DNA from: Malachius bipustulatus | Taxonomy: Eukaryota; Arthropoda; Insecta; Coleoptera; Melyridae | DNA length: 64,000 nt | NCBI GenBank assembly: GCA_910589415.1 | Contig: OU342638.1 | Location: forward strand, 32,461,579-32,525,578 | Direction: 5' to 3' | Shown: positions 7,491 to 60,618 of the stretch, in pieces | Numbering within the stretch: the first letter of the stretch is position 1 | Layout: each line of letters begins with the position of its first letter | Notes under the pieces: model-generated | Database searches by the model: none | What the model saw: the letters and a program-made list of their open reading frames with translations, nothing else | What the model was told of the DNA's origin: nothing | Made by a program: the position numbers and the translations under genes

Positions 7491-8830
7491 TTTATCCTCA
7501 AAATGGTCTGTGTATTTTTCGTTTGGTCAAGTATCGGTTTGGTAATGATCGGTCATATTTTTTATATTATACAGGGTGCTGATAAATTTTCTGTTATTAT
7601 TTTTTAGGGGCGATAATCAGAGCTTTTCAAAATATCCTTCAAAAGTATTTAAAAATTCAATTACCAAATACTCTGCTTTATAGAAAGGATTTCTAGTACC
7701 AAATACCTACTCAAGAAAAGTAATTGAAATTTACAGAAAATAGAGTATTTTAAATATTCTGTAGTATTTGAAATGCCAAAAGATTATTTGAAATGCAAAA
7801 TGGTGTATGAATTTTTTGTTAGGTCATATATTTAAATGATCAATTTATTTTTTATATTATACAGGGAGGGGGAGTCTTCTGTTATTATTTCTTAGGGGTG
7901 ATAGTCAGAGTTGTTTCAAATACCCATCAAAAGTATTTGAAAATTCAATTACCAAATACCATGCTTTATAGAAAATATTTCTAATATGAAATACTCAAAA
8001 AATTAAAATTTACAGCACATTAATGCCCGTATTCACAAACGATAATTTCCTAAATAATTACGTAATTATTTAAATGAGTGAGATGGAGATATGCAGTTTT
8101 TTTGCAATAGAATGAGATGGGGATAATTGATTACGTAATTATTTTGGAAATTATCGTTTGTGAATACGGGCATAAGTATTTCAAATATTCTATAGTATTT
8201 GAAATACCACAAGTTTAGTTGAAATATAAAATGGTCTATGTATTTTTTGTTAGGTCAAGTATTCAAAATGATCAATTTTTTTATATTATACTGCTATTTT
8301 TTTAGGTTTGATATCCAGAGCTGTTCCAAATACCAATCAAAATTATTTGCAAATTCAATTACCAAAAAATTTTCTTTATAGAAAGGTTTGAAATACCAAA
8401 TACTCAAAAGAAATATTTGAAAGTTACAGCAAATAAAGTATTTCAAATATTCTCTAGTATTTGATATAAAGTAGTTTATTTGAAATACGACATGGTCTAA
8501 GTATTTTTTGTCAAGTCAGGTATTTAAAACGAACAGTTTTTTTACATTATACAGGGTGCTGGTGAGTTTTTTTGTCATTTTTTATGGGTGATAATCAGAG
8601 CTGTTCTAAATACTCATCAAAAGTATTTTCAAATTCAATTACCAAATACTCTGCTTTATACAAAGGATTTCAAATACCAAACACTCGAGGGAAGTAATTG
8701 AAATTTCAAATATTCTCTAGTATTTGAAATTCCAAATATTTATCTGAAATTCCACAAGTTTTATTTCAAATACCCAAAAATTATTCTAAGGTTTTCAAAT
8801 CCTTTGTGTGTATTTGAAACACTACAAATT
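7490..8830. repeat. Diverged tandem array, ~300-350 bp unit
   Basis: About four copies of a unit are seen: 'aaatggtctatgtatttttt', 'tatattatacaggg', 'tgataatcagagctgtt', 'caattaccaaatactctgctttata', then runs of 'tatttgaaatacc'. Starts lie near 7500, 7798, 8225 and 8485. The ACAGGG core resembles a MITE terminus, so the array may have grown from a MITE. Relics of the same text occur at 12400-12710. Confidence 0.75.
8021..8175. mobile_element. Harbinger-like MITE with 45-bp TIRs
   Basis: The element 8024-8172 (149 bp) begins TGCCCGTATTCACAAACGAT and ends with its reverse complement. The first ~43 bases of the arms match with one difference. It is flanked by TAA on both sides (8021-8023, 8173-8175), the TWA target duplication typical of PIF/Harbinger elements. 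It sits inside one unit of the surrounding array and interrupts it cleanly, so it arrived after amplification. A near-match to one end (GCCCGTATTCAT) occurs alone near 8945. Confidence 0.85.
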
Positions 8831-9055: not shown

Positions 9056-9059
9056 GGCA

Positions 9060-9356
9060 TGTAACAATTTTTACTTAATTGTTCTTCGGGTTCGTTTATC
9101 GATTGGTAAAACTCAGATATTATTTTCAACTAATTTAATAACAATGATGACTATTTATTTTTACACCACCAAATAAGTACTACTTATCTATTTTCCATTT
9201 ATATTACACCCAAATTACGGCTTACTATTTTTCAACTGTCATTTTTCGGAGAGACGCCATCCAGACGGTTACTCCAGAAACCTACGTCAGGATCGCGCCA
9301 GCTGCCGGCGCTGCCATGTTGCACGCCCGGGCAATTGAGAGCGAAATCTCGTTACA
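9060..9356 (-). repeat. 3' LTR of the gypsy element
   Basis: This 297-bp copy is nearly identical to 11814-12110. It starts and ends with the perfect short inverted repeat TGTAAC/GTTACA. It supplies the stop codon (9352-9354) of the last open frame. Confidence 0.95.
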
Positions 9357-10602
9357 CTGCCCCCTCCTTAAAGAGTAAAGACCTTTCGTCCCGAAAGGTA
9401 GTCTTCTCCGGACGATGTAGATATCGGCAGGCTGATCCGTTTCTGCAGCCTGATGTCTGGTAGAAGTAGCAGTCAATGGTCCTCTCTCCTCCGGCCCTTC
9501 GGTTGAAGCTGCACACCAGGACGTCAATCCCCGTATGTCGAAACAGGACCTCCAACATACTTCGGACAACACGCCAATCCAAACTATCCCTTCCACATGC
9601 CAATTTTGGTATCGCCAAGTTAGTCTCATTGTTGGCCACCATCACTTCCCTGAGTCTGGTGAGAGCATTCCATAAATCGCGGTAGGTTGGTTTTTCTTGT
9701 GACCTTTCTTTGATGACTAAGTGGTAGATACTTCTTCTCACTCCCCCTTCCATGTGCTTAATTCGTAGTGCGTCTCCTAACCGAGGGTTTTGCTTCCGTA
9801 GCTCATCAAGTTGGCCAAATTTTGCTCGGAAGACATTTGCGATTCCTCGGTACATCAGAAGGTCTCTTGCGACGCAATGAGCCAAGCTGTAATGCGAAGG
9901 TACGTCAAAAAGGCCACCGGGCTCCTCTCGAACCACACCAAACCAAGACCTATGTGTGCCTGTGTGCAAGGCCATGAAATCTTCGAATGAGCAGTCGTTG
10001 TCCCATGTGATCACCCTGGCTTCTGCTGTTGGATCGTCATTGTCTCCAACATAAGGTGTTAATCGGTTGAAGTGGACAACTCTTGGTTTTCCCCTGGGCT
10101 GCTTCTGAATTCTATATACCACATCGTTGATCCTTGCTAGCACTCGATTAGGACCCTCCCACGACGACTGTAGTTTTGGTGATAGACCTCGACGTCGTTG
10201 AGGATTATGAAGCCAGACCATATCTCCGAGTTGGTAGCCGCCTTCCTGCGCTTTGATGTCATAAACCTCCTTCATTCGGTCGCTAGCATCCTGTATATGC
10301 ACCCGTGCTCGTTCGTGCATATCGTCCATCTTCTTACGGAGCTCGCTGACATAGTCCTCCCCAGCAACCTCTGCTCCCGGAGGGCACCCAAACTGCAAGT
10401 CGCAAGGCAACCTCAATTCTCGTCCCATTACGATCTTCGCCGGTGTTTGGCCCGTGGTTTCGTGTACGGCAGATCTGTAGGCTAACAGAAAGAGGTGCAG
10501 ACATTTGTCCCAGTCCCTTTGGTGGTCAGAGACAACCTTTGATAAATATCGGTTCATGGTGCGGTTCATGCGTTCCACCATTCCATCAGATTGCGGATGC
10601 AA
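9352..10602 (-). CDS. Integrase C-terminus fused to TARG1-like macro domain and CCCH zinc finger
   Basis: The 416-codon open frame is the 3' part of pol. Residues 1-60 are the end of the integrase core; E10 in the DGMVERMNR motif is the catalytic Glu. Residues ~125-190 are a GPY/F-like C-terminal domain (WEGP, RVVHFNRLTPY). Residues ~232-367 form a macro domain closest to human TARG1/OARD1: SLAHCVARDLL, GIANVFRAKFG, an IYHLVIKER segment (K298 at the catalytic Lys position), KPTY, and LACGRDSLDW (D339 at the catalytic Asp position). TARG1 hydrolyses O-acetyl-ADP-ribose and removes ADP-ribose from glutamate. The phosphate-binding loop has MYRGIA where TARG1 has MGAGIA, which may alter activity. 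Residues 378-396 are a C-x7-C-x5-C-x3-H zinc finger, usually RNA-binding. The frame runs through the polypurine tract and stops inside the LTR. The listed start is only where the frame opens after a frameshift; the true protein would begin far upstream. Confidence 0.9.
   Translation of the reverse strand: MHPQSDGMVERMNRTMNRYLSKVVSDHQRDWDKCLHLFLLAYRSAVHETTGQTPAKIVMGRELRLPCDLQFGCPPGAEVAGEDYVSELRKKMDDMHERARVHIQDASDRMKEVYDIKAQEGGYQLGDMVWLHNPQRRRGLSPKLQSSWEGPNRVLARINDVVYRIQKQPRGKPRVVHFNRLTPYVGDNDDPTAEARVITWDNDCSFEDFMALHTGTHRSWFGVVREEPGGLFDVPSHYSLAHCVARDLLMYRGIANVFRAKFGQLDELRKQNPRLGDALRIKHMEGGVRRSIYHLVIKERSQEKPTYRDLWNALTRLREVMVANNETNLAIPKLACGRDSLDWRVVRSMLEVLFRHTGIDVLVCSFNRRAGGERTIDCYFYQTSGCRNGSACRYLHRPEKTTFRDERSLLFKEGAV
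9357..9369 (-). promoter_or_regulatory. Polypurine tract (plus-strand primer)
   Basis: On the minus strand AAGGAGGGGGCAG abuts the 3' LTR, the usual place for plus-strand DNA priming. It is also coding, giving the last residues of the CCCH protein. Confidence 0.85.
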
Positions 10603-11432
10603 GGCAGTTGTTCTTGTCTTGCGTATACCCAGAAGTCTGCAGATATTTTGAAACAGGTTGGACTCAAAATTCTACCCTGGTCGGAATGAAGCTCCAAAGG
10701 CACGCCAAATCGACAGACCCATTCTTTTACTAATACTTCTGCGATCGTCACAGCCTCCTGATTTGGCAACGCATACGCTTCGACCCATTTGCTAAAATAA
10801 TCCATAACGACCACGATGTACTTGTTCCCCGCCTCGCTTTCCGGGAACGGTCCAGCTACATCGATTGCGATTCTCTCAAATGGGCTGCCTACGTTGTACT
10901 GCTTCATTGGGGCTCTCTTCCGCCTCTGGGGTCCATTGCTCGCTGCACAGGTAACGCATTTTCTGCACCAATCTTTCACGTCTTCCTTGCTGTTAACCCA
11001 GTAGAAGCGTTCTCTTAACTTGCCCAGCGTCTTCGCCACTTCAAGATGTCCGCCGGATGCGCCGTTATGCATTTCCCTAAGTACTTCAGCGACACGATTG
11101 TTAGGGACTATAATCTGCTTACGCTTCTCCCTGCCGTCTTCTCCTTCTAGGATGCGTTTCAGTATTCCATCATGGAGTATGATGGAATCCCACTGTGCCC
11201 AGTAGCACTTTACAGCCGGGGAATGTCGTGCTACCTGTTGCCAAGCTGGTCTACGGCCTGCTCTCTTCCAAGCCAACACAAGTCTTAAGACAGGGTCACC
11301 TTCTTGGTCTACTTCGATTGCTGCCGGTTGCCAGTTGTCAGACACAACCGTTGTTCTTCTGCAGAGAACAGACTCCTTTTCTTCAGCTCGCTGGCAGTGT
11401 TTACAGTCCGGAGGACAAGGTCTTCTGGACAA
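10566..11432 (-). pseudogene. Integrase, zinc-binding and core domains (frameshifted)
   Basis: The frame contains an HHCC zinc-binding domain (H122, H129, then WCRKCVTC with C159/C162) and the rve catalytic core: D191 in AIDVAGPF and D251 in LHSDQGR. A one-base loss at about 10670-10675, just after SDQGR, shifts the frame; the remaining core continues in the 9352-10602 frame. Counting across the shift, the third catalytic residue (Glu) lies 35 residues after D251, the canonical D,D-35-E spacing. Integrase joins element cDNA ends to host DNA in the nucleus. The first codon is TTG inside the RNase H tail, so this is not a real start. The protein from this copy would be truncated. Confidence 0.92.
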
Positions 11433-11796
11433 GGCGTCAGCATTCCCATGGATCTTTCCGGCACGATGCTCTGTTTCGAAGTCGAATTCTTGTAGCCTTT
11501 CGATCCATCTGGCTACCTGTCCTTCCGGGTTCTTGAATTGTAGTAGCCATTTAAGAGCTGCGTGGTCGGTCCTGAGGAGGAAGTTCCTTCCATAGAGGTA
11601 TTTATAGAAGTGTTCTACCGACTGCCAAAAGTTCTCTGCGAGTCACACAATAATTCCGCTCTGGCTTGGATAAAGTTTTACTAAAATACCCGATAACCCT
11701 TTCTTGACCTCCCTGGATTTGTGACAGAACGGCACTTATTCCTACGTTGCTGGCATCTGTGTCTAAGATGAACCGCCCCTCGGACAAGGGATAACC
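11433..11796 (-). pseudogene. RNase H domain, frameshifted and 5'-truncated
   Basis: RNase H removes the RNA strand of the RNA:DNA hybrid during reverse transcription. Visible motifs are FILDTDASN (first catalytic Asp), TRREL (Glu), LRTDHAALKW (Asp) and HGNADALSRR (last Asp), the order seen in Ty3/gypsy pol. The first part is in one frame (stop at about 11602); from 11618 the domain continues in the integrase frame, so there is a frameshift at 11617-11622. Nothing of the reverse transcriptase precedes it: the SEGRF segment is joined to primer-site sequence, and the frame even opens backwards into the 5' LTR. Confidence 0.9.
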
Positions 11797-11811
11797 CCAC
11801 ACCTGACACCA
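11795..11811 (-). promoter_or_regulatory. Primer binding site, tRNA-Leu-like
   Basis: Two bases inside the 5' LTR the minus strand reads TGGTGTCAGGTGTGGGG. This resembles the complement of the 3' end of tRNA-Leu (recalled, not searched). The last few bases may derive from the RNase H side of the deletion. Confidence 0.65.
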
Positions 11812-11813
11812 AT

Positions 11814-12110
11814 TGTAACAATTTTTACTTAATTGTTCTTCGGATTCGTTTATCGATTGGTAAAACTCAGATATTATTTTCAACTAATTTAATAACAATG
11901 ATGACTATTTATTTTTACACCACCAAATAAGTACTACTTATCTATTTTCCATTTATATTACACCCAAATTACGGCTTATTATTTTTCAACTGTCATTTTT
12001 CGGAGAGACGCCATCCAGACGGTTACTCCAGAAACCTACGTCAGGATCGCGCCAGCTGCCGGCGCTGCCATGTTGCACGCCCGGGCAATTGAGAGCGAAA
12101 TCTCGTTACA
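11814..12110 (-). repeat. 5' LTR of the gypsy element
   Basis: 297 bp, differing from the 3' LTR only at 11844 and 11979. In the minus orientation it would carry the promoter; I could not pin down a TATA box. Confidence 0.95.
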
Positions 12111-12114
12111 GGCA

Positions 12115-16789: not shown

Positions 16790-19300
16790 GAAATCTTTTT
16801 TTAGGCCACGATTTTCCACTTAATAATGAGCAAACGGGAAAGAGAAAAATGACTAGTTGCTTGAAAAAATCTCAAAATTGCTGCTGAGAAGAGATTTTCG
16901 TTCAAAGATCGAAATATTTTGTCAAATCACGATTTCCCACTCAATAATGGGCAGCCTGGGAAAGAGAAAAATGACTAGTTATTTGAAGAAATCTTTGAAT
17001 TGCTGCTGGGAAGAGATTTTCGTGCAAAGATCGGAATTTTTTTTCGAGCTGCGAATTCTCACTTAGTAATGGGCAACTTGAGAAGGTAAAAAAGTACTAG
17101 TGGCTTGAAAAAATCTCTAAATTGCTGCTGAGAAGAGATTTTCGTTCAAAGATCGTAACTTTTTTCTAGTTACGATTTTCATCTTAACAATGGGCAAACG
17201 GGGAAAGAGGAAAAAGACTAATTGCTTGAAAAATTTCTAAATTGCTGCTGAGAAAAAATTTTCGTTCAAAGATCGGAATTTTTTGTCAAGCCACCATTTT
17301 CCGCTTATTCATGAGCATACGGGGAAGAGAAAAATTGTTTTGTTTCTTGAAAAAAAATCTAAATTTTTCGTAAAGATTTTTCTCGAGAAGAGATTTGCGT
17401 TCAAAAATCGGAATTTTTTGTTCAAGCCACGAATTTCCACTCAATAATGGGCAAACTGGGAATAAGAAAAAGGGCTAGTTGCTTAAAAAAATTCTATATA
17501 AATTGCTACTGAGAAGAGATTTTAGTGAGAAGGTGAAAATGACTAGATACTTGAAAAAATCTCTAAATTGCTGCTGAGAAGGGATTTTCGTGAAAAGATG
17601 TTTTTCCAAGCTGTGATTTCTCACTTAATAATGAGCAACCTGGGAAGGTGAAAAAGGATTAGTTGCTTGAAAAAATCTCTAAATTGCTGCTGAGAAGAGA
17701 TTTTCGTGAAAAGATGTTTTTCCAAGCTGTGATTTCTCACTTAATAATGAGCAACCTGGGAAGGTGAAAAAGGATTAGTTGCTTGAAAAAATCTCTAAAT
17801 TGCTGCTGAGAAGAGATTTTCGTGAAAAGATGTTTTTCCAAGCTGTGATTTCTCACTTAATAATGAGCAATCTGGGAAGGTGAAAAAGGATTAGTTGCTT
17901 GAAAAAATCTCTAAATTGCTGCTGAGAAGAGATTTTCGTGAAAAGATGTTTTTCCAAGCTGTGATTTCTCACTTAATAATGAGCAACCTGGGAAGGTGAA
18001 AAAGGATTAGTTGCTTGAAAAAATCTCTAAATTGCTGCTGAGAAGAGATTTTCGTGAAAAGATGTTTTTCCAAGCTGTGATTTCTCACTTAATAATGAGC
18101 AATCTGGGAAGGTGAAAAAGGATTAGTTGCTTGAAAAAATCTCTAAATTGCTGCTGAGAAGAGATTTTCGTGAAAAGATGTTTTTCCAAGCTGTGATTTC
18201 TCACTTAATAATGAGCAATCTGGGAAGGTGAAAAAGGATTAGTTGCTTGAAAAAATCTCTAAATTGCTGCTGAGAAGAGATTTTCGTGAAAAGATGTTTT
18301 TCCAAGCTGTGATTTCTCACTTAATAATGAGCAATCTGGGAAGGTGAAAAAGGATTAGTTGCTTGAAAAAATCTCTAAATTTCTGCTGAGAAGAGATTTT
18401 CGTGAAAAGATGTTTTTCCAAGCTGTGATTTCTCACTTAATAATGAGCAACCTGGGAAGGTGAAAAAGGATTAGTTGCTTGAAAAAATCTCTAAATTGCT
18501 GCTGAGAAGAGATTTTCGTGAAAAGATGTTTTTCCAAGCTGTGATTTCTCACTTAATAATGAGCAACCTGGGAAGGTGAAAAAGGATTAGTTGCTTGAAA
18601 AAATGTCTAAATTGCTGCTGAGAAGAGATTTTCGTGAAAAGATGTTTTTCCAAGCTGTGATTTCTCACTTAATAATGAGCAACCTGGGAAGGTGAAAAAG
18701 GATTAGTTGCTTGAAAAAATCTCTAAATTGCTGCTGAGAAGAGATTTTCGTGAAAAGATGTTTTTCCAAGCTGTGATTTCTCACTTAATAATAAGCAACC
18801 TGGGAAGGTGAAAAAGGATTAGTTGCTTGAAAAAATCTCTAAATTTCTGCTGAGAAGAGATTTTCGTGAAAAGATGTTTTTCCAAGCTGTGATTTCTCAC
18901 TTAATAATGAGCAACCTGGGAAGGTGAAAAAGGATTAGTTGCTTGAAAAAATCTCTAAATTGCTGCTGAGAAGAGATTTTCGTGAAAAGATGTTTTTCCA
19001 AGCTGTGATTTCTCACTTAATAATGAGCAGCCTGGGAAGGTGAAAAAGGATTAGTTGCTTGAAAAAATCTCTAAATTGCTGCTGAGAAGAGATGTTCGTT
19101 CAAGGATCGGTATTTTTTCAAGCCACGATTTCCCACTTATTAATGGGAATCCGGGAAAGAGAAAAGGGACCACTTGGTGGAAAAAATGTCTAAATTGCTG
19201 ATCGTTCAAAGATCGAGTTTTTTTTTCCAAACCACGATTTCCCACTTAATAATGGGCAAACGGGGAAAGCGAAAAAGGACTAGTTCCTTGAAAAAATTCA
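16790..19300. repeat. 116-bp satellite array with homogenised core
   Basis: The core (about 17530-19075) holds 13 monomers with an exact 116-bp period; the string GCAACCTGGG or a one-base variant recurs at 17635, 17751, 17867, 17983, 18099, 18215, 18331, 18447, 18563, 18679, 18795, 18911 and 19027. Core copies differ at only a few sites, for example CC versus TC in that string. On both sides (16790-17530 and 19076-19300) copies diverge progressively in sequence and length. No frame crosses monomers. Confidence 0.95.
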
Positions 19301-21439: not shown

Positions 21440-22790
21440 TGATCCTTCCCCCTTTTTTGCAGCAGCCATGCATTTATCAATAACGACCAGTAACGATCAG
21501 TATCAATAACTGTTACTATGTCACACTTTCTTCACACTATCACACTTTTTTTCAATTGATACTGAGTTACCATTCATATACGCGACTTATTTTGTTGCAG
21601 GAGCTGTCACAGTTACGCACGTATCAATAACGACCAGTAAGAGTAGCCACAGCCATTCAAGAGCGTGCTGAACTGATAATAATCAACGATCAGTGAACTG
21701 AAGGAGCAACTGGCTACAGGAGCTGCTACAGCAAATAACTTATCAGTAACTGTTCTCATTTCACACTTTCTTCGCACTTTCTGTCGATTTCAAAAAACGG
21801 AGAGTTACCATTTTTCTTCATACACGCAACTTATTTTGTTGCAGGAGCTGTCACAGTTACGCACGTATCAATAACGACCAGTAAGAGTAGCCAAAGCCAT
21901 TCAAGAGCGTGATGAACTGATAATAATCAACGATCAGTGAACTGAAGGAGCAACTGGCTACAGGAGCTGTTACAGCAAATAACTTATCAGTAACTGTTCT
22001 CATTTCACACTTTCTTCACACTTTCTGTCGATTTCAAAAAACGGAGAGTTACCATTTTTCTTCATACACGCAACTTATTTTGTTGCAGGAGCTGTCACAG
22101 TTACGCACGTATCAATAACGACCAGTAAGAGTAGCCAAAGCCATTCAAGAGCGTGCTGAACTGATAATAACCAACGATCAGTGAACTGAAGAGCAACTGG
22201 CTACAGGAGCTGTTACAGCAAATAACTTATCAGTAACTGTTCTCATTTCACACTTTCTTCGCACTTTCTGTCGATTTCAAAAAACGGAGAGTTACCATTT
22301 TTCTTCATACACGCAACTTATTTTGTTGCAGGAGCTGTCACAGTTACGCACGTATCAATAACGACCAGTAAGAGTAGCCACAGCCATTCAAGAACGAGCT
22401 GAGCTGATAATAACCAACGATCAGTGAACTGAAGAGCAACTGGCTACAGGAGCTGTTACAGCAAATAACTTATCAGTAACTGTTCTCATTTCACACTTTC
22501 TTCGCACTTTCTGTCGATTTCAAAAAACGGAGAGTTACCATTTTTCTTCATACACGCAACTTATTTTGTTGCAGGAGCTGTCACAGTTACGCACGTATCA
22601 ATAACGACCAGTAAGAGTAGCCACAGCCATTCAAGAGCGTGCTGAACTGATAATAACCAACGATCAGTGAACTGAAGAGCAACTGGCTACAGGAGCTGTT
22701 AAAGCAAATAACTTATCAGTAACTGTTGTCATTTCACACTTTCTTCGCACTTTCTGTCGATTTCAAAAAAACGGAGAGTTTTTAGGGATC
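21440..22790. repeat. ~244-bp satellite array
   Basis: The string GAGCTGTCACAGTTACGCAC recurs at 21601, 21845, 22089, 22332 and 22575 (periods 244, 244, 243, 243). Full copies are highly similar. A diverged partial copy precedes them at about 21465-21600, and the array breaks off at about 22777 within the conserved 'acggagagtt' text. Confidence 0.95.
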
Positions 22791-27916: not shown

Positions 27917-28147
27917 CGTCCTTTCTGTAATACAATATCTCGGCGTGCTTCTCCGTTCCGTCTTGCAGGGACTCCCGAAGAGAGGCCACCGCTTGTTGGC
28001 TGGTCAAAGGGCCACAGAGGAACTCGCAGCTGGCCGGACGTTGCATCACCTCCGCCCGGGAGTAGCCCGTCAGGCGGCAGAAGCCGTCCGAGCAGTAGAT
28101 TATGTGACATTGTCCTTCTCGGCTGTTTGCGACCAAGAACGACCGAT
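27917..28147 (-). CDS. sei: Erg-type KCNH potassium channel, PAS-domain exon
   Basis: This 231-bp exon lies between a ttttctgttccag acceptor (AG at 28149-28148) and a G|GTGAGT donor (27916-27911). It encodes most of the cytoplasmic PAS (eag) domain: RSFLVANS, IIYCSDGFCRLTGYSRAEVMQ, a CEFLCGPLTS segment and EILYYRKDG. In KCNH channels this domain caps the channel from inside and slows closing (deactivation). GYSRAEVMQRP and the YRKDG end are closest to the Erg subfamily (KCNH2, fly seizure) rather than Eag or Elk. Length (231 bp) and phases (1 at both ends) equal those I recall for human KCNH2 exon 2, and the split codons fall at equivalent residues. Flanking exons were not found: the first exon should lie at higher coordinates and the next at lower ones, so both introns are long. 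Only this exon of the gene is certain here. Confidence 0.88.
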
Positions 28148-28229
28148 CTGGAACAGAAAACCGCGAGGTTAGAAAGGCAAGAAAGCGATAAAACTTTTTC
28201 AGAGCTTTCAAAATAAAAAATGTGAGCTT

Positions 28230-31200
28230 TAGGAGAGGATAGGCTCTAATTGGGAAAGCTCAAAAAAGCTGAGGGATCGGGAGATATGAAAAGGTGACTG
28301 AAAAGGTTAGAAAGGCTAGATAAATAATTGAATTATCGAATGATACAGAAATTGATTAAAGTTATATTTTATTTTAAGTTAATTGTAGTTTAATTAGAGC
28401 TTAAGCGAAGCCTAATTGCGGCATAATGTCTTGAATAAATTTAGAAAGGAAGGTACAGTTAAATAAATAAATAAACCAAAACATAATTTAAGACAGTGAA
28501 GCCACTCGACAAGATTAAATAAGTAAATATTATAGAGGTCAGAATGTTTAGGTAAAGTTAGAAAGACTCCACAAAATAAAAGAAAGGTTAGAAAGCTCAT
28601 CTTTACGTTAGTAAACGTGTAAACTAGATTGAAAAAAGTGAGAGGAATCATGAAATATTAGAAAGACACGGAAAAACATAAATTTATAAAATCTTTTACC
28701 TATAAGTAAGAAAGTCTAGTTAGAAAGTAGGTTAGAGGAGCTGAGATAATTCAGGAAAAAATATATAAGAAATTATGAATGAGTATAAAGTTCTGATCTA
28801 TTTTAGAAAAGCCAGCAAGGCACTATTTTAGAGAAAGTAAGAGACCTCGAAAAGGCTAAAAATACATCAAAATGGCTAAGAAAAGATAAAAATATCAAAT
28901 TTGAGTTTGTAAATCTTGAAAATAAGTTAAACGAGATGATAAAGTCCAGGAAGTATTAGAAAGACGCAAAAAAAATCTCATATCCAGCTAAAAAAGTCTG
29001 GTCAGAAACAAGGTTAGAGAAGACAAGAGACCCTAGGAATAGTTAGAAAGGCCGATTTAGCTCAGAAAAGTAGAAAGCTAATATTTAGGTAGAAATGCCA
29101 TTAAACTAGATCTGAGAAGGTCCTAGAGAGTTTAGAAAAGATTAGAAAGATGGAAAAAAAATTGAGGGACTATAGAGTTGTTATGTATTTTAGAAAGTCC
29201 GGCAAGAAACTATTTTTGAGAAAGTACGAGACCTCAGAAAAGGTTGGAAGGACGTCAAAATAAATGAGAAAAGGTAGAGGTTATATTTGAGAGGAACAAA
29301 AAAAAAACGAAAAAACTCAGAAAAATCTCATATCTAGCTAAGAAAGGCTAGTCAGAAACAAGGTTAGAGAGGACGAGAGACCCCTGTAAAAGTTACAAAG
29401 GCCGATTAAGCTTTCAAAAATTAAATATTTAGTTTGGAAAACCTTAGAATAAGATTAGTGAATGTCAAAGAGAGTTGAAAAAGGTTAGAAAGATTATAAA
29501 CTTCATATGTATTTTAGAAAGTCCGGCATGGAACTATTTCAAAGAAGCTATAAGACCTCAGATAAGGCTAGAAAGTCATAAAAACAGCTAATAAAAGGGA
29601 AAGACGAGGTGATAAAGTCCAGGAAGTATTAGAGAGAAACAAGAAAACGAAGAGACCAAAAAAATCTCATATCTAGCTAGGAAAGTGTAGTCAGAAACCA
29701 GGTTAGAGAAGACGAGAAGCCCAAGGAAAAGAAGGCAGATTTAGCCAAGAAAATTAAAAAGCTAATATTTAGTTAGGAATGCCACGGAACTAGATTAGAG
29801 AAAGTCATAGAAAGGCAAAATTAGAAAAGCAGATAAAAAGTTGGTGATAAATATTTAAAAAAAGGATGATAAAGTTTTTAGGTATTTTGGAAAGTCCTGC
29901 AAGGAACTATTTTAGAGAAGGTACGAGACCTCAGAAAAGGCTAGAAAGACATCCAAACGACTAAGAAAAGTTAAAAATATCAAATTAAGGTTAGTAAGCC
30001 TCGAAGTTAGGTTAAACGAGGTGATAAGCTACAGGAAATATTAGAAAGACAAAAAAAACAATGAAACCAAAAAGTATCAAGAACTAGGTTAGAGAAGAAA
30101 AGATCGCAGCAGAGGCAACAAAGACAGCAAAAAAGGAACGGTAAGAGTAAAAGTTCATATTTAGTACATGTTGAAACTAGATTAAAGTTGAAAGAGTTCT
30201 AGAAAAACTAGAAAGGCACTAAAAAACTAGAACTACTAAAAATCTTACCTAGCTAGAAAGTCTAGTCAGAAACAAGTCAATGCAAAAAATAGTCAAAAGC
30301 TAGATTAGAGACACTCAGAGATTTCAAGAAAAAATATAGAAAGATATAAAAACATGAAAACGAGACAGTAAAAGTTAGAAAGCTCAAAATGTCAACAAAA
30401 ACCTCAAAAATTTCTACCGAAACACGTTAAAGTAGGAGATGAGATGAGAGAGTATAGTTGAGATTAGAAAGAACCCTAAAAAGCTAAAAAAAGGTATGAC
30501 ACCCATGTCTAATCTAGAAGATCTAGTTAGAAAACGGTGAGAGAGCTCAGATAACTTTCGAACGACATGAAAAAATTAAAAAAAAACTTTCAAGGTTCGT
30601 ATAAGCTTGAGAAGTCTATCAGAAAAGGTTAGAAAGGCAAATAAGCTACGAGAAATTAGAAAGCTCATATACATCAATGTTAGCCTGCCTATAAATTCGT
30701 GTCAAGGGGGAAATAGGTATCGTTTAACTGATATAAAAAACAAACCAATTTATTTGTGAACAGGGACAGAACAGTGTAAAGAGGGTGAGATGAATTGGGC
30801 AATTGACACCAAGGATGAAATTTACGAGCTAAGAAGTTTGTGGTATGATTAAATTTAATTAATGAGGAGAACGGTAGGGCGAAGTTTTAGAGTTAGAAAG
30901 TCCTAAAACTAGACTAAAACTAAAAATTAGATTAAAAAATTTAAACGTGGAAGTGTAAGGGCGAAAAGATTTCATAAAGGTTAGAAAGTTCATACCCACT
31001 AATAGCAGGAAGGAAAAATAAATATCATTACGAAATAGAGAGCCCATGCAAAGTTCCAAATATAATTAAATTTAAATTGGAATTATCCACTAAATTTCAA
31101 AGTGGAGAAGATATTAGAAAGAGTGGGTTGATGTTAGAAAGCAAGTTAGGGATCAAGTGGCTGTTTAGGGTAGACGGCGTAGAAATAATACTCCTGGTAA

Positions 31201-41082: not shown

Positions 41083-42855
41083 TCTAATTAACCAGTTAGC
41101 AAAACAGCGTCAATAAGACGTCATTTTTTGGCGTTTTCCGACATCGAATGGCGAATTGAGCAATATGCGATGAATGAGGTGGTAATAACGAAGAAAGCTC
41201 AGTGATAAAAATGGAAGACGTCATTTATTCACTAGAAATCAGGTCAAAAAACGACGTAAGAACTACCAAATTGAAGACCCTGGCCTAAAAAAGAACCTAC
41301 TTGGGGGGCGTGACTACGAGCAACGTCAATAAGATGTCATTTTTTGGTATTCCCCAACATCGAGTGACAAATTTAGCGACGTGAGATGAGATCGTAACAA
41401 CGAAGAAGTCTCGCTAATCAAAATGTCACACGTCGTTTATTCACTTAAAATCAGGTCAAAAAACGACGTAAAAACTACCAAATTGGAGACCCTGACCTAA
41501 AAAAGAACTTAATTGAGAATGTGACTATGAGCAACGTCAATAAGACGTCGTTTTTGGTATTCATCAACATCGAGTGACAAATTTAGTGACGTGAGAATGA
41601 GGTCGCAACAACGAAGAAATCTCACTGACGAAAATGTCACACGTCATTTATTCACTAAAAATGAGGCCAAAAACGACGTAAAAACTACCAAATTGGAGAC
41701 CCTGACCTAAAAAAGAACTTAATTGAGAACGTGACTATGAGCAACGTCAATAAGACGTCATTTTTTGGTATTCCCCAACATCGAGTGACAAATTTAGTGA
41801 CGTGAGAATGAGATCGTAACAACGAAGAAGTATCACTAATGAAAATGCCATACGTCATTTATTCACTTAAAATCAGGTCAAAAAACGACGTAAAAACTAC
41901 CAAATTGAAGACCCTGACCTAAAAAAAACCTAATTTGGGACGTGACTATGAGCAACGTCAATAAGACGTCATTTTTTGGGGTTTTCCGACATCGAATGGC
42001 GAATTGAGCAATATGCGATGAATGAGGTGGTAATAACGAAGAAAGCTCAGTGATAAAAATGGAAGACATCATTTATTCACTAGAAATCAGGTCAAAAAAC
42101 GACGTAAGAACTACCAAATTGAAGACCCTGGCCTAAAAAAGAACCTACTTGGGGGGCGTGACTACGAGCAACGTCAATAAGATGTCATTTTTTGGTATTC
42201 CCCAACATCGAGTGACAAATTTAGCGACGTGAGATGAGATCGTAACAACGAAGAAGTCTCGCTAAACAAAATGTCACACGTCGTTTATTCACTTAAAATC
42301 AGGTCAAAAAACGACGTAAAACTACCAAATAGAAGACCCTGACCTAAAAAAAGCACTCAATTTGGGACGTAACTACAAGCAACGTCAATAAGACGCCATT
42401 TTCTGGTGTTCTCCGACATCGAATGACGAATTTAGTGACGTGAGAATGAGATCGTAACAACGAAGAAGTATCACTAATGAAAATGTCATACGTCATTTAT
42501 TCACTTAAAATCAGGTCAAAAAACGACGTAAAAACTACCAAATTGGAGACCCTGACCTAAAAAAGAACTTAATTGAGAATGTGACTATGAGCAACGTCAA
42601 TAAGACGTCGTTTTTGGTATTCATCAACATCGAGTGACAAATTTAGTGACGTGAGAATGAGGTCGTAACAACGAAGAAATCTCACTGACGAAAATGTCAC
42701 ACGTCATTTATTCACTAAAAATGAGGCCAAAAACGACGTAAAAACTACCAAATTGAAGACCCTGACCTAAAAAAGAACCTAATTTGGGACGTGACTACGA
42801 GCGACGTCATTAAGACGTCAATTTTTAGTTTTCTCCGACATCGAATGTCCAAATT
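41083..42855. repeat. ACGTC-rich tandem array, ~211-bp unit, reverse orientation
   Basis: The CAACGTC anchor recurs at 41321, 41532, 41742, 41953, 42169, 42380 and 42592, a period of 210-216 bp. Unit text such as 'aggtcaaaaaacgacgtaaaaactaccaaatt' is the reverse complement of the 36.7-38.7 kb array. Near-identical units recur at 849 bp (41132 and 41981) and 1060 bp (41532 and 42592), so blocks of units have duplicated. Confidence 0.92.
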
Positions 42856-52870: not shown

Positions 52871-54055
52871 TTCAGTCTGAGTCAGATGGTACAAAGGATT
52901 CACATGAAGGAGAAATCGATTATTTGGGCCATATATTCCCGACTTAGATAGCAAGACCAATCAATCAATCATCCAGATTGACTAATAAAAGTATAATTCT
53001 TCACACCAATGTATAAGCATCTACTTACAGCTCACTTTAGAGCCAGCTTATGTAACAAAGCAAGTCTTCAAGATCTGAAGCGCCACCCACTCATCTCGTC
53101 AGCCATCCTCGGATTAACGCTAAAGTGTTTGTTTCGCTTGTTCGTCCGCTTATTCTCTCCAAGTGACCTGGCCTGAAAGTGAACACAAGTACAATTCACA
53201 GCTCTGACCTGGCGGATTGTTATACGACCCAGCAACCGCCGCTTCAAGCCCATGTAATATTAAATTTTATGAATCGCGATACCCGCGGATGCAAAGTCGA
53301 CTGACAAATGAATTTTTGGGGGTGGCGGTCGTCGCTGTGCTCATGTTGACCTCAAACCAGATTAAACCGAGTGTGTTTGCCAAATAGGACGTTAGAGTTA
53401 GGATAGTAGCCGCTCGTGGTCCGCGGTGCGAATTTTTTAACCCGTAATAGGTCTCCTGAGGTCTGAGGTGAAAGATTTATAGTTGTCTGACTCAGTATTA
53501 GTGTTAGACTCAGAACACGCTTAGTTTTTTTTTTAAGTCAATATAACCAACGTCGTCATCCTCGAAAAACAATTCCAAGAACGCAATGAAAATAACATCA
53601 TCACAAACGGGCATAAAAACCGGGACAAACAAACTACTTCCAGATTTTATACCGTCAGTTTCTGTAAGCCTCACCCCGTCCGGTCGTGAAATATTTCCCT
53701 CAATTACGCCTTTCATAGAGCCGGGCAATAAAGCCCAAACGGCCGCCTTTCCGTCTCACTTCCAGGACATTCCAATTCTGTTGATCTCGGCTTTACAACA
53801 CGAGGGTTAATAAAATGATCCGACCTTTCGCGGTCGATGTTATCCGGTGCGAAAGGTTCCTGTAGGATGTGTTCCAGCGGCGGGGACAGGTTGGAATGGT
53901 TAATAAATTGCGTTCACCTGCTACGATGTCAGTTTTTCTTACACTTCCTTCGCCGTGGTCGTAGGAAGTACATATTGACAGATGGAGTTTTATTAGATCT
54001 TCATGTGGGGACTATTTTGTTTAATTTGGTCACCATAACAGAGATAGTTTAACTG
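52871..54055. other. Spacer, no gene supported
   Basis: Overlapping open frames on both strands near 53510-53810 lack a recognised motif or splice sites. Confidence 0.45.
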
Positions 54056-54059
54056 ATTA

Positions 54060-57000
54060 TTTACGATTTAGCCCTTGAAAGAGATTTTCTCGTTCAAGCT
54101 TTTAAATTTTGGAAATTGGTGGTGTTTCGTCGAATAATTGGTTGCAGTTTCTTGTCAAAAATGAAAGACTGCAGTTAGTTGATGCCGAACTATCCCCGAG
54201 ACAAATTACAAATGACCATAACGGAGATAGTTTTGCCGTTTCTTGACGATCTTGCCCTTGAAGAGATTTTCACGTTCTTCAAACTTTTTGATTTTGGAAA
54301 TTGGTGGTGCTTCGTCGAATAATTGGTTGCATTTTTTTGTCAAAAATGAAAGACTGCAGTCAGTTGATGCCGAACTATCCCCGAGACAAATGACAAATGT
54401 CCATAACAGAGATAGTTTTGCCGTTTCTTGACGATCTTGCCCTTGAAGAGATTTTCACGTTCTTCAAACTTTTTGATTTTGGAAATTGGTGGTGTTTCGT
54501 CGAATAATTGGTTGCAGTTTTTTGTCAAAAATGAAAGACTGCAGTCAGTTGATGCCGAACTATCCCCGAGACAAATGACAAATGACCATAGCAGAGATAG
54601 TTTTGCCGTTTCTTGACGATCTTGCCCTTGAAGGGATTTTCACGTTCTTCAAACTTTTAGGCTTTGCATATTGGTGGTGTTTCGTCGAATAATCGGTTGC
54701 AGTTTTGTCAAAAATTAAAGAATGCAGTCAGAGGGTGCCGAACTATCCCCGAGACAAATGACAAATGACCATAGCAGAGATAGTTTTGCCGTTTCTTGAC
54801 GATCTTACCCTTGAAGAGATTTTCACGTTCTTCAAACTTTTAGGCTTTGCATATTGGTGGTGTTTCGTCGAATAATCGGTTGCAGTTTTGTCAAAAATGA
54901 AAGACTGCAGTCAGAGGGTGCCGAACTATCCCCGAGACAAATTACAAATGACCATAACGGAGATAGTTTTGCCGTGTCTTGACGATCTTGCCCTTGAAGA
55001 GATTTTCACGTTCTTCAAACTTTTTGATTTTGGAAATTGGTGGTGCTTCGTCGAATAATTGGTTGCATTTTTTTGTCAAAAATGAAAGACTGCAGTCAGT
55101 TGATGCCGAACTATCCCCGAGACAAATGACAAATGTCCATAACAGAGATAGTTTCGCCGTTTCTTGACGATCTTGCCCTTGAAGAGATTTTCACGTTCTT
55201 CAAACTTTTTGATTTTGGAAATTGGTGGTGTTTCGTCGAATAATTGGTTGCAGTTTTTTGTCAAAAATGAAAGACTGCAGTCAGAGGGTGCCGAACTATC
55301 CCCGAGACAAATTACAAATGACCATAACGGAGATAGTTTTGCCGTGTCTTGACGATCTTGCCCTTGAAGAGATTTTCACGTTCTTCAAACTTTTTGATTT
55401 TGGAAATTGGTGGTGCTTCGTCGAATAATTGGTTGCATTTTTTTGTCAAAAATGAAAGACTGCAGTCAGTTGATGCCGAACTATCCCCGAGACAAATGAC
55501 AAATGACCATAGCAGAGATAGTTTTGCCGTTTCTTGACGATCTTACCCTTGAAGAGATTTTCACGTTCTTCAAACTTTTAGGCTTTGCATATTGGTGGTG
55601 TTTCGTCGAATAATCGGTTGCAGTTTTGTCAAAAATGAAAGACTGCAGTCAGAGGGTGCCGAACTATCCCCGAGACAAATTACAAATGACCATAACGGAG
55701 ATAGTTTTGCCGTGTCTTGACGATCTTGCCCTTGAAGAGATTTTCACGTTCTTCAAACTTTTTGATTTTGGAAATTGGTGGTGCTTCGTCGAATAATTGG
55801 TTGCATTTTTTTGTCAAAAATGAAAGACTGCAGTCAGTTGATGCCGAACTATCCCCGAGACAAATGACAAATGTCCATAACAGAGATAGTTTTGCCGTTT
55901 CTTGACGATCTTGCCCTTGAAGAGATTTTCACGTTCTTAAAACTTTTTGATTTTGGAAATTGGTGGTGCTTCGTCGAATAATTGGTTGCATTTTTTTGTC
56001 AAAAATGAAAGACTGCAGTCAGTTGATGCCGAACTATCCCCGAGACAAATGACAAATGACCATAGCAGAGATAGTTTTGCCGTTTCTTGACGATCTTGCC
56101 CTTGAAGAGATTTTCACGTTCTTCAAACTTTTTGATTTTTGAAATTGGTGGTGCTTCGTCGAATAATCGGTTGCAGTTTTGTCAAAAATGAAAGACTGCA
56201 GTCAGAGGGTGCCGAACTATCCCCGAGACAAATGACAAATGACCATAACAGAGATAGTTTTGCCGTTTCTTGACGATCTTGCCCTTGAAGAGATTTTCAC
56301 GTTCTTCAAACTTTTAGGCTTTGCATATTGGTGGTGTTTCGTCGAATAATCGGTTGCAGTTTTGTCAAAAATTAAAGAATGCAGTCAGAGGGTGCCGAAC
56401 TATCCCCGAGACAAATGACAAATGACCATAGCAGAGATAGTTTTGCCGTTTCTTGACGATCTTACCCTTGAAGAGATTTTCACGTTCTTCAAACTTTTAG
56501 GCTTTGCATATTGGTGGTGTTTCGTCGAATAATCGGTTGCAGTTTTGTCAAAAATGAAAGACTGCAGTCAGAGAGTGCCAAACTATCCCCTAAACCCGAG
56601 ACAAATGACAAATGACCATAACAGAGATAGTTTTGCCGTTTCTTGACGATCTTGCCCTTGAAGAGATTTTCACGTTCTTCAAAATTTTAGATTTTGCATA
56701 TTGGTGGTGTTTCGTCGAATAATCGGTTGCAGTTTTGTCAAAAATGAAAAATTGCAGTCAGAGGGTGCCGAACTATCCCCGAGACCCGAGACAAATGACA
56801 AATGACCATAACAGAGATAGTTTTGCCGTTTCTTGACGATCTTGCCCTTGAAGAGATTTTCACGTTCTTCAAAATTTTAGATTTTGCATATTGGTGGTGT
56901 TTCGTCGAATAATCGGTTGCAGTTTTGTCAAAAATGAAAAATTGCAGTCAGAGGGTGCCGAACTATCCCCGAGACCCGAGACAAATGACAAATGACCATA

Positions 57001-60000
57001 ACAGAGATAGTTTTGCCGTTTCTTGACGATCTTGCCCTTGAAGAGATTTTCACGTTCTTCAAACTTTTAGGCTTTGCATATTGGTGGTGTTTCGTCGAAT
57101 AATCGGTTGCAGTTTTGTCAAAAATGAAAGACTGCAGTCAGAGGGTGCCGAACTATCCCCGAGACAAATTACAAATGACCACAACGGAGATAGTTTTGCC
57201 GTGTCTTGACGATCTTGCCCTTGAAGAGATTTTCACGTTCTTCAAACTTTTTGATTTTGGAAATTGGTGGTGCTTCGTCGAATAATTGGTTGCATTTTTT
57301 TGTCAAAAATGAAAGACTGCAGTCAGTTGATGCCGAACTATCCCCGAGACAAATGACAAATGTCCATAACAGAGATAGTTTTGCCGTTTCTTGACGATCT
57401 TGCCCTTGAAGAGATTTTCACGTTCTTCAAACTTTTTGATTTTGGAAATTGGTGGTGTTTCGTCGAATAATTGGTTGCAGTTTTTTGTCAAAAATGAAAG
57501 ACTGCAGTCAGTTGATGCCGAACTATCCCCGAGACAAATGACAAATGACCATAGCAGAGATAGTTTTGCCGTTTCTTGACGATCTTGCCCTTGAAGAGAT
57601 TTTCACGTTCTTAAAACTTTTTGATTTTGGAAATTGGTGGTGCTTCGTCGAATAATTGGTTGCATTTTTTTGTCAAAAATGAAAGACTGCAGTCAGTTGA
57701 TGCCGAACTATCCCCGAGACAAATGACAAATGTCCATAACAGAGATAGTTTTGCCGTTTCTTGACGATCTTGCCCTTGAAGAGATTTTCACGTTCTTCAA
57801 ACTTTTTGATTTTTGAAATTGGTGGTGCTTCGTCGAATAATCGGTTGCAGTTTTGTCAAAAATGAAAGACTGCAGTCAGAGGGTGCCGAACTATCCCCGA
57901 GACAAATGACAAATGACCATAACAGAGATAGTTTTGCCGTTTCTTGACGATCTTGCCCTTGAAGAGATTTTCACGTTCTTCAAACTTTTAGGCTTTGCAT
58001 ATTGGTGGTGTTTCGTCGAATAATCGGTTGCAGTTTTGTCAAAAATTAAAGAATGCAGTCAGAGGGTGCCGAACTATCCCCGAGACAAATGACAAATGAC
58101 CATAGCAGAGATAGTTTTGCCGTTTCTTGACGATCTTACCCTTGAAGAGATTTTCACGTTCTTCAAACTTTTAGGCTTTGCATATTGGTGGTGTTTCGTC
58201 GAATAATCGGTTGCAGTTTTGTCAAAAATGAAAGACTGCAGTCAGAGAGTGCCAAACTATCCCCTAAACCCGAGACAAATGACAAATGACCATAACAGAG
58301 ATAGTTTTGCCGTTTCTTGACGATCTTGCCCTTGAAGAGATTTTCACGTTCTTCAAAATTTTAGATTTTGCATATTGGTGGTGTTTCGTCGAATAATCGG
58401 TTGCAGTTTTGTCAAAAATGAAAAATTGCAGTCAGAGGGTGCCGAACTATCCCCGAGACCCGAGACAAATGACAAATGACCATAACAGAGATAGTTTTGC
58501 CGTTTCTTGACGATCTTGCCCTTGAAGAGATTTTCACGTTCTTCAAAATTTTAGATTTTGCATATTGGTGGTGTTTCGTCGAATAATCGGTTGCAGTTTT
58601 GTCAAAAATGAAAAATTGCAGTCAGAGGGTGCCGAACTATCCCCGAGACCCGAGACAAATGACAAATGACCATAACAGAGATAGTTTTGCCGTTTCTTGA
58701 CGATCTTGCCCTTGAAGAGATTTTCACGTTCTTCAAACTTTTAGGCTTTGCATATTGGTGGTGTTTCGTCGAATAATCGGTTGCAGTTTTGTCAAAAATG
58801 AAAGACTGCAGTCAGAGGGTGCCGAACTATCCCCGAGACAAATGACAAATGACCATAACAGAGATAGTTTTGCCGTTTCTTGACGATCTTGCCCTTGAAG
58901 AGATTTTCACGTTCTTCAAACTTTTAGGCTTTGCATATTGGTGGTGTTTCGTCGAATAATCGGTTGCAGTTTTGTCAAAAATTAAAGAATGCAGTCAGAG
59001 GGTGTCGAACTATCCCCGAGACAAATGACAAATGACCATAGCAGAGATAGTTTTGCCGTGTCTTGACGATCTTGCCCTTGAAGAGATTTTCACGTTCTTA
59101 AAACTTTTTGATTTTGGAAATTGGTGGTGCTTCGTCGAATAATCGGTTGCAGTTTTGTCAAAAATTAAAAATTGCAGTCAGGGGGTGCCGAACTATCCCC
59201 GAGACAAATGACAAATGACCATAACAGAGATAGTTTTGCCGTTTCTTGACGATCTTGCCCTTGAACAGATTTTCACGTTCTTCAAACTTTTAGGCTTTGC
59301 ATATTGGTGGTGTTTCGTCGAATAATCGGTTGCAGTTTTGTCAAAAATTAAAAATTGCAGTCAGGGGGTGCCGAACTATCCCCGAGACAAATGACAAATG
59401 ACCATAACAGAGATAGTTTTGCCGTTTCTTGACGATCTTGCCCTTGAAGAGATTTTCACGTTCTTCAAACTTTTAAGCTTTGCATATTGGTGGTGCTTCG
59501 TCGAATAATCGGTTGCAGTTTTGTCAAAAATGAAAGACTGCAGTCAGAGAGTGCCAAACTATCCCCTAAACCCGAGACAAATGACAAATGACCATAACAG
59601 AGATAGTTTTGCCGTTTCTTGACGATCTTGCCCTTGAAGAGATTTTCACGTTCTTCAAAATTTTAGATTTTGCATATTGGTGGTGTTTCGTCGAATAATC
59701 GGTTGCAGTTTTGTCAAAAATGAAAAATTGCAGTCAGAGGGTGCCGAACTATCCCCGAGACCCGAGACAAATGACAAATGACCATAACAGAGATAGTTTT
59801 GCCGTTTCTTGACGATCTTGCCCTTGAAGAGATTTTCACGTTCTTCAAACTTTTAGGCTTTGCATATTGGTGGTGTTTCGTCGAATAATCGGTTGCAGTT
59901 TTGTTAAAAATGAAAGACTGCAGTCAGAGAGTGCCAAACTATCCCCGAGACCTGAGACAAATGACAAATGACCATAACAGAGATAGTTTTGCCGTTTCTT

Positions 60001-60285
60001 GACGATCTTGCCCTTGAAGAGATTTTCACGTTCTTCAAACTTTTAGGCTTTGCATATTGGTGGTGTTTCGTCGAATAATCGGTTGCAGTTTTGTCAAAAA
60101 TGAAAAATTGCAATCAGAGGGTGCCGAACTATCCCCGAGACAAATGACAAATGACCATAACAGAGATAGTTTTGCCGTTTCTTGACGATCTTGCCCTTGA
60201 AGAGATTTTCACGTTCTTCAAAATTTTAGATTTTGCGAATTGGTGGTGTTTCGTCGAATAATCGGTTGCAGTTTCTTCAAAAATG
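54060..60285. repeat. ~186-bp satellite with higher-order repeats, about 33 copies
   Basis: Monomers of 182-195 bp share 'ttgacgatcttgcccttgaag', 'gattttcacgttcttcaaa', 'attggtggtg', 'cttcgtcgaataat', 'ccgaactatccccgagac'. Three monomer classes differ after 'cgttcttcaaa' (TTTTTGATTTTGGAAATTGG; TTTTAGGCTTTGCATATTGG; ATTTTAGATTTTGCATATTGG), and some carry an extra CCCGAGA. A marker variant recurs exactly 1674 bp apart (56571 and 58245; 55936 and 57610), a nine-monomer higher-order unit. The 62-codon frames repeated in both directions are by-products: the period is not a multiple of three, so frames break at each monomer boundary. Confidence 0.97.
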
Positions 60286-60618
60286 AAATCTGAAGTGCAG
60301 TTGATGTAAAGAAGAAGACAAACCTGAGAGTTTCTGCTTTTCCACTGTCCAGCTCTTCGTCAACATCAGAATTCACATTGGTGGAATTTGAGCGTGATAT
60401 AGACAGAATTTAATGGACATATCCATCAGTAGATCCGAGAAATCGGGTGCTTGGAGGGTGTTTAGGGGTTAGGGGTTTGTCCACTCTCGAGGAGACACGG
60501 AGGGCGCAATGGACACCTAGGTGTCAGTGTGAAATTAACCTCCCCACCACAAACCAAATCAGGAGAAATTTGTCATGGTAATCAAAATTGCAATCAAAAT
60601 CTCAATATTCTCCATAGT

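Follow-up and report, generated by a model that had tools for sequence, protein, structure and literature searches.

Within a 64,000-nucleotide stretch of Malachius bipustulatus DNA (contig OU342638.1 of assembly GCA_910589415.1, positions 32,461,579 to 32,525,578; hereafter the window), a long open frame forms the tail of a 3,051-bp Ty3/Gypsy element with long terminal repeats (LTRs), at 9060-12110 on the minus strand (Table 1). A sequence-only reading had described one frame joining the end of a Gypsy integrase to a TARG1-like macro domain and a CCCH zinc finger; the frame is real, lies on the minus strand, and measures 439 amino acids (aa) from stop to stop. Pfam places Integrase_p58_C at 2.3e-11 in the first half, the end of a Ty3/Gypsy integrase, together with SH3_Tf2-1 at 3.8e-06 (27.4 bits, below the cut-off of 30). 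The next two domains score slightly below their curated cut-offs, Macro at 0.0016 (18.8 bits; cut-off, 22) and zf-CCCH at 0.0018 (18.6 bits; cut-off, 20.5), which may be the reason that databases give such proteins no macro label. The finger spacing, C-x7-C-x5-C-x3-H, is present as first described, and the relative P0006 passes zf-CCCH at 29.4 bits.

Judged by sequence and modelled fold, the macro domain is of the TARG1/OARD1 type, with the predicted catalytic pair kept in the window copy. A phmmer search of the macro part against PDB matched human TARG1 (C6orf130) at 7.6e-25. An AlphaFold2 model of the 214-aa macro-CCCH piece (P0001), built from 47 aligned sequences, was confident over the macro part (block means of 88-98, residues 1-160) and of low confidence over the finger (51-64, residues 171-200). 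The best Foldseek match for this model was TARG1 chain 4j5s_C (E 7.6e-17, TMt 0.96, rmsd 1.4). TARG1 chains held ranks 1-8, DarG came next, and chikungunya appeared from rank 17 on, with no coronavirus chain among the best 50 rows listed; the domain is therefore closer to TARG1 than to the viral, alphavirus-type subfamily. Lys96 and Asp137 of P0001, the residues earlier named K298 and D339, align with K84 and D125 of TARG1, the latter being the number we assume for its catalytic Asp. Two alignment columns are reported invariant across the 47 rows, that of the Lys among them, and at least 90% of rows retain the Asp; over 121 aligned stretches from 120 long public proteins, mostly from two species, Lys is present in 120 and Asp in 119. 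Passages of PMC8501950 identify K84 as the catalytic Lys of TARG1 and, with passages of PMC8053099, report that TARG1 strips ADP-ribose from Glu/Asp, from nucleic-acid end phosphates, and from thymidine, and that a K84A mutant does not rescue.

The window copy is a deleted element. It shows the Ty3/Gypsy hallmarks of TG...CA LTRs and a target-site duplication (4 bp, GGCA, on both sides), with a primer-binding site and a polypurine tract recognized by inspection, and its LTRs of 297 bp each are identical at 295 of 297 positions, which would fit a recent insertion. The stop codon of the frame falls within the 3' LTR. Between the primer-site-like stretch and RNase H, gag, protease, and reverse transcriptase (RT) are absent, and the frame is broken twice, once in RNase H and once in the integrase core; the copy is therefore broken and non-autonomous, and what had been taken for a 416-residue product is a fragment of its pol, begun at an arbitrary TTG, the gene start being unproven. 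Amplification of a deletion derivative was considered and rejected, as the junction stretch has 16 matches and only the window locus continues into the LTR; the deletion thus looks private, an indication that is not strong since it rests on about 14 bases beyond the junction.

A fuller copy lies elsewhere in the genome. A search of the 544-Mb assembly with the macro-CCCH piece gave 206 candidates, of which 150 were scored and 146 matched. Sixteen of these matches (87-100% identity) belong to the window family, family A, 13 of them without stops in the matched stretch. Lys and Asp are present in all 16 (L016, printed out of register, was read by eye), and the CCCH pattern is intact in 15 and lost in L015. 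One copy, L044, carries in three frames a SAP-bearing gag-like open reading frame (ORF), protease-RT, and RNase H-H2C2-rve-p58_C-macro-CCCH; it was scanned with Pfam in pieces, and its macro and CCCH parts fall below the Pfam cut-off. The public protein P0222 (1,379 aa) has no internal stop, and its protease, RT, RNase H, H2C2, rve, and p58_C regions all score above Pfam cut-offs, with macro and CCCH identified by hidden Markov model (HMM) and pattern. The Ty3/Gypsy pol order of protease-RT-RNase H-integrase is found in L044 and P0222; the window copy has only RNase H and integrase. At C7:6008452-6062257, ten LTR matches fall inside 54 kb with four consecutive spacings of 5,621-5,661 bp, and this family-A cluster resembles a tandem array sharing LTRs.

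The macro codons show signs of purifying selection. Window and L006 differ by 13 synonymous and 8 non-synonymous changes, a ratio of non-synonymous to synonymous rates (dN/dS) of 0.17. With six of the 14 gap-free family-A stretches compared, the 15 pairs ranged from 0.17 to 1.09; the maximum came from two closely related copies separated by 1.5 and 5.5 changes. A binomial test gave P values of 2e-4, 0.007, and 0.005 for family-A pairs, 0.004 and 0.004 for family-B pairs, and 0.1 for a C/D pair (families B and C/D are described below), the last with too few changes to tell about selection; the test is rough, as it assumes a non-synonymous share of 0.76 and the six pairs share ancestry.

The same fusion occurs in other species. 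A search for relatives among proteins of 241-768 aa found seven, five with the integrase end, of which four have an intact CCCH pattern. P0007 has the macro domain with two CCHC knuckles instead of the integrase end, in a gag-like ORF that we take to be of the non-LTR type, and P0008 has a piece of the macro domain with a weak protease match. A profile search among proteins of 118-375 aa gave 140 matches, 120 of them listed. Among those listed, HMM matches to the integrase end were found in Aromia, Exocentrus, Molorchus, Callosobruchus, Leptinotarsa, and the firefly Aquatica; together with a Diabrotica protein from the 241-768 aa search, also matched by HMM, the integrase-linked macro domain spans longhorn, leaf, seed, and firefly beetles. 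Acanthoscelides proteins carry macro and CCCH; for Brassicogethes, Pyrocoelia, and two hemipterans, Macrosteles and Nilaparvata, the link is one of similarity; and cell-type OARD1 appears in the same listing, for example from flies, a flea, Photinus, and Aromia. For long proteins, a padded search yielded 176 matches, of which the 120 listed are by name mostly from Aromia moschata and Molorchus minor. Among these 120, integrase precedes macro in 118 and CCCH follows it in 114, with macro and integrase HMMs built from members of the same family; the macro domain in 120 of 120 is uninformative, since these proteins were retrieved by it. The CCCH finger, for which the sequence-only reading suggested a putative role in binding element RNA, is not universal: its pattern is absent in all seven members of a lineage grouping with hemipteran proteins, among which P0029, P0034, and P0036 reach the usual C-terminal end and the others are shorter. 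In P0015, the macro domain directly follows a stretch that by eye resembles gag and has no Pfam family, perhaps in a deletion derivative.

Other copies thus do not end before the macro domain. The idea that a host OARD1 fragment fell by chance into one copy, or that the match is spurious, to which the sub-cut-off Pfam scores might point, is refuted by the 16 genome copies, the same order in other species, the TARG1 matches in sequence and fold, and a single clade in the tree below (99/94); we regard it as practically ruled out.

A second pol position is used by other Gypsy families of the same genome, many of them with long open frames, in which the macro domain lies between RNase H and the integrase H2C2 domain. 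Families B (L021), C/D (L025 and L027), and G (L033) have RT, RNase H, and integrase H2C2. Pfam scans in pieces covered L021, L025, L027, L029, L031, L033, and L040 (L040 without the RNase H part), and the remaining linker-type loci were assigned to families by identity. A3, a profile of linker-type domains, matches TARG1 at 6.2e-37. Family B has 17 matches, 16 without stops and 11 at 100% identity over 134 residues; C/D has 18, none with stops, in frames of 1,797-2,323 aa; and G has two. Lys and Asp are kept in all three. In family F, which has five copies, the shortened macro domain still matches TARG1 at 1.3e-14, with Lys and Asp recognized by eye, and beside its pol an ORF at L031:6029-8032 matches Baculo_F at 2.0e-60, an envelope-like gene. 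L032 is grouped with L031 as showing an envelope-like ORF next to a pol whose macro domain is shortened (Baculo_F was tested in L031 only); family C/D has a G-patch domain after protease; and a dUTPase-like stretch lies upstream of RT in family G (L033:5484-7259; 21 bits against a Pfam cut-off of 22). With A2, a scan of IMG/VR returned three contigs (30% identity), of which two exceed 138 kb; with A3 it returned none.

The origin of the domain was examined in a careful tree of 61 rows, reduced from a quick tree of 68 by dropping L002, L005, L013, L030, L031, P0097, and P0125. With host OARD1 included, as the sequence-only reading proposed, the tree sets the integrase-end fusions on one side of a branch (99/94) and the linker type in a separate clade (100/100); the 'host' rows, so named because they stand alone or with other N-termini, do not form one supported group (50/81), and beetle cell-type OARD1 rows are nearest to the elements, weakly (44/85). 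P0007 falls beside the integrase-end fusions (91/76). The integrase-end label in this tree ('INTc') was given by similarity to P0012, P0014, P0023, P0033, and P0043, which have no integrase HMM match, and to P0017 and P0026 from last integrase residues seen by eye only, and copies from the beetle's own genome were not each scanned for integrase; the 99/94 clade is thus partly a clade of similar macro domains. A single clade uniting the two element types was not rejected by an approximately unbiased (AU) test (p 0.419), so the tree does not prove two captures; the two pol positions and the separate, strongly supported linker clade only suggest them. In trees of 19 rows, integrase and macro both recover P0006 with P0018, the Molorchus rows, and the Aromia pair, a pattern consistent with co-inheritance; window and P0222 pair at 93/91 in the integrase tree and are not clearly recovered as a pair in the macro tree. 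OARD1 seems to be multi-copy in this genome, where several short open frames (L034-L038) combine a macro domain like that of cell-type OARD1 with N-termini of their own. A wider proposal, which we advance tentatively and think somewhat more apt to fail than to hold, is that insect Gypsy-type elements have repeatedly acquired, under selection, a module that handles ADP-ribose. A TARG1-type enzyme would have been taken up at least twice, once after integrase and once between RNase H and integrase (there also by an envelope-bearing family), with P0007 perhaps a third case, because reversing ADP-ribosylation of cDNA or integration intermediates would limit retroelement integration in insects.

Elsewhere in the window, a tandem array occupies 54032-60288 (183-bp unit, 33.7 copies, 93% matches), and others lie at 17529-19200 (116-bp unit), 21573-22780 (243 bp), 41108-42844 (211 bp), and 62661-63929 (264 bp). 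A 50-bp inverted repeat at 8023-8173 has arms 94% complementary and 51 bp apart, and 28001-30000 has a strong purine excess on the plus strand (GC skew 0.286, AT skew 0.309).

Table 1. Features of the deleted Gypsy element, in window coordinates
Feature	Position	Strand	Basis
Target-site duplication GGCA, left copy (element 3' end)	9056..9059	.	
3' LTR, 297 bp, TGTAAC...GTTACA	9060..9356	-	295/297 identical to other LTR
Stop codon of integrase-macro-CCCH frame, inside LTR	9352..9354	-	
Open frame: integrase end, macro, CCCH (439 aa stop to stop)	9352..10671	-	
Polypurine tract adjoining 3' LTR, overlapping last codons	9357..9375	-	Sequence inspection
CCCH-type finger, C-x7-C-x5-C-x3-H	9415..9471	-	Sub-cut-off Pfam and pattern (intact in 15/16 family copies)
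TARG1/OARD1-type macro domain	9502..9933	-	phmmer, AlphaFold2, Foldseek
Asp codon, TARG1 D125 equivalent (P0001 residue 137)	9586..9588	-	Alignment
Catalytic Lys codon, TARG1 K84 equivalent (P0001 residue 96)	9709..9711	-	Alignment
Integrase C-terminal SH3/p58_C region	10051..10227	-	Pfam
Integrase core (rve), first part, other frame	10671..10883	-	Pfam
Integrase H2C2 zinc-binding domain	10935..11108	-	Pfam
RNase H, second part	11484..11624	-	Pfam
RNase H, first part, other frame	11617..11778	-	Pfam
Primer-binding-site-like stretch	11796..11811	-	Inspection
5' LTR	11814..12110	-	LTR comparison
Target-site duplication GGCA, right copy	12111..12114	.	

Our preferred reading, which we hold to be evenly poised between right and wrong, is that the captured TARG1-type domain with which the Gypsy pol ends, joined in most lineages seen by a CCCH finger, would act as a hydrolase that erases ADP-ribose on the element nucleoprotein or at the integration site. 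The macro domain would be made with integrase as the last part of pol and would enter the particle and the integration complex with it. It would there strip ADP-ribose from the element nucleoprotein, either from acidic side chains or from the ends or bases of RNA and cDNA; alternatively, it would strip proteins at the nick or repair site, where PARP1-type enzymes act. The cDNA would then stay usable and the integration site repairable, and action on chromatin at integration sites is possible. We favor this reading because the domain is TARG1 by sequence and fold, the Lys-Asp pair is kept, the codons appear to be under purifying selection, P0222 is a pol without internal stop, and a second pol position is used.

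Several observations weigh against it. The Asp is absent from a diverged Diabrotica-type clade (P0006, P0018, and P0020) and also from P0019 and P0039. In the window family the TARG1 loop MGAGIA is replaced by MYRGIA, which could alter binding, and family C/D reads LANC for LAHC, Asn replacing His. Family E (L029/L030; four matches) has a decayed macro domain that has lost Lys and Asp, and in family F roughly the first 43 of the 144 model positions are missing. Window and P0222 share 63% identity over the macro domain and 83% over the integrase end, so that the former is the less conserved, and the window copy is unable to make an intact pol. The Asp-less clade and the decayed families argue against a universal role as a hydrolase and fit a role in reading ADP-ribose or a relaxed need for the domain.

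If the domain reads rather than erases, it would bind ADP-ribose on chromatin or repair proteins and tether the integration complex, with catalysis dispensable; the chromodomain linked to integrase in chromoviruses is thought to tether their integration complex. Its location at the integrase C-terminus, the open frames retained by the clade without the catalytic Asp, and the long open frames in which degenerate linker copies sit are consistent with this, as is a preprint reporting that, in mosquitoes, a viral macrodomain depends on ADP-ribose binding and not on hydrolysis (PMC12632316). Lys and Asp are, however, kept in most lineages and in every family-A copy, and the position between RNase H and integrase is less obviously that of a tether, so we consider tethering rather unlikely. 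The persistence of degenerate domains in the long open frames of families E and F could also mean that the macro domain is a stable folded extension or linker that spaces the polyprotein and has no ADP-ribose role. Such a structural passenger seems very unlikely given the low dN/dS in families A and B, the Lys-Asp pair kept in A, B, C/D, and G, and the recurrence of one cellular family at a second place in pol.

The sequence-only reading had proposed that the element captured a host ADP-ribosyl hydrolase, perhaps to counter PARP-type defense. TARG1 ancestry and the kept catalytic pair bear out the capture; the defensive purpose, in which the domain would erase antiviral ADP-ribosylation placed by host PARPs on element RNA or proteins, fares less well. 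Viral macrodomains are reported to do so in mammals, PMC4695847 describes mono-ADP-ribosylation of KAP1 by SIRT6 in the silencing of mammalian L1, and conservation is lower in the macro domain than in the integrase end. However, PMC10221186 states that most vertebrate PARPs are absent from insects and that macrodomain activity was lost in insect-specific alphaviruses, and a pol domain would presumably be present at low level inside particles. Because insects lack most vertebrate PARPs and one lineage has lost the Asp, this explanation is weakened, as it is by the degenerate linker domains, and we think it distinctly improbable.

Whichever role it has, the captured TARG1-type domain resembles several known systems in part. 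It shares with human TARG1/OARD1 (4j5r/4j5s) the macro fold, the Lys-Asp pair, and 36% identity in structural alignment, and differs in being fused to integrase, in the CCCH that follows, and in MYRGIA for MGAGIA. Macrodomains of alphaviruses and coronaviruses likewise place an ADP-ribose-handling macro domain inside a viral polyprotein, whereas in Foldseek the alphavirus chains come after those of TARG1 and DarG. Chromoviruses, which PMC5348765 mentions, are Ty3/Gypsy elements with a captured domain at the integrase C-terminus, as here, but it is a chromodomain where we find macro and CCCH. The same paper describes the second RNase H of Tat-type and oomycete Gypsy elements as a repeated capture of a cellular domain, also seen in non-LTR elements; there the captured domain is RNase H, not macro. 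Retroelements with a macro-domain protein are known among the epsilon-type endogenous retroviruses (ERVs) of fish, where, by the one-sentence description in PMC4977317 (citing Basta et al. 2009), macro domains are encoded as additional ORFs, unlike here; capture of a macro domain by a retroelement is therefore not new in kind. As the sequence-only reading suspected of this domain order, open-licence full-text literature (without most subscription journals) yielded no TARG1-type macro domain ending a Gypsy pol with CCCH and none between RNase H and integrase, the fish ERV sentence being the only retroelement-macro precedent; a word search of the survey PMC9503650 found 'retro' only in a passage on 2H domains, and no transposon, Metaviridae, TARG1, or OARD1. 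What appears to be new is a TARG1-type macro domain as the end of a Gypsy pol with CCCH, and at the RNase H-integrase position.

One practical consequence concerns annotation: the Leptinotarsa entry 'ADP-ribose glycohydrolase OARD1-like' (P0035), which has the integrase end, looks like an element fragment and not a host gene, and the same may hold, by similarity only, for P0033 and P0037 of Macrosteles, P0043 of Nilaparvata, and P0039 and P0059 of Diabrotica. Natural pairs of domains with and without the catalytic Asp would allow the reading of ADP-ribose to be separated from its erasure. If the domain works, ADP-ribosylation of DNA or protein could be tested as a step in the integration of retroelements in insects, which lack most of the PARPs discussed for antiviral defense. 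As other elements of the genome carry the domain at another place in pol, retroelements of this kind might benefit from dealing with a mark that is seldom associated with them.
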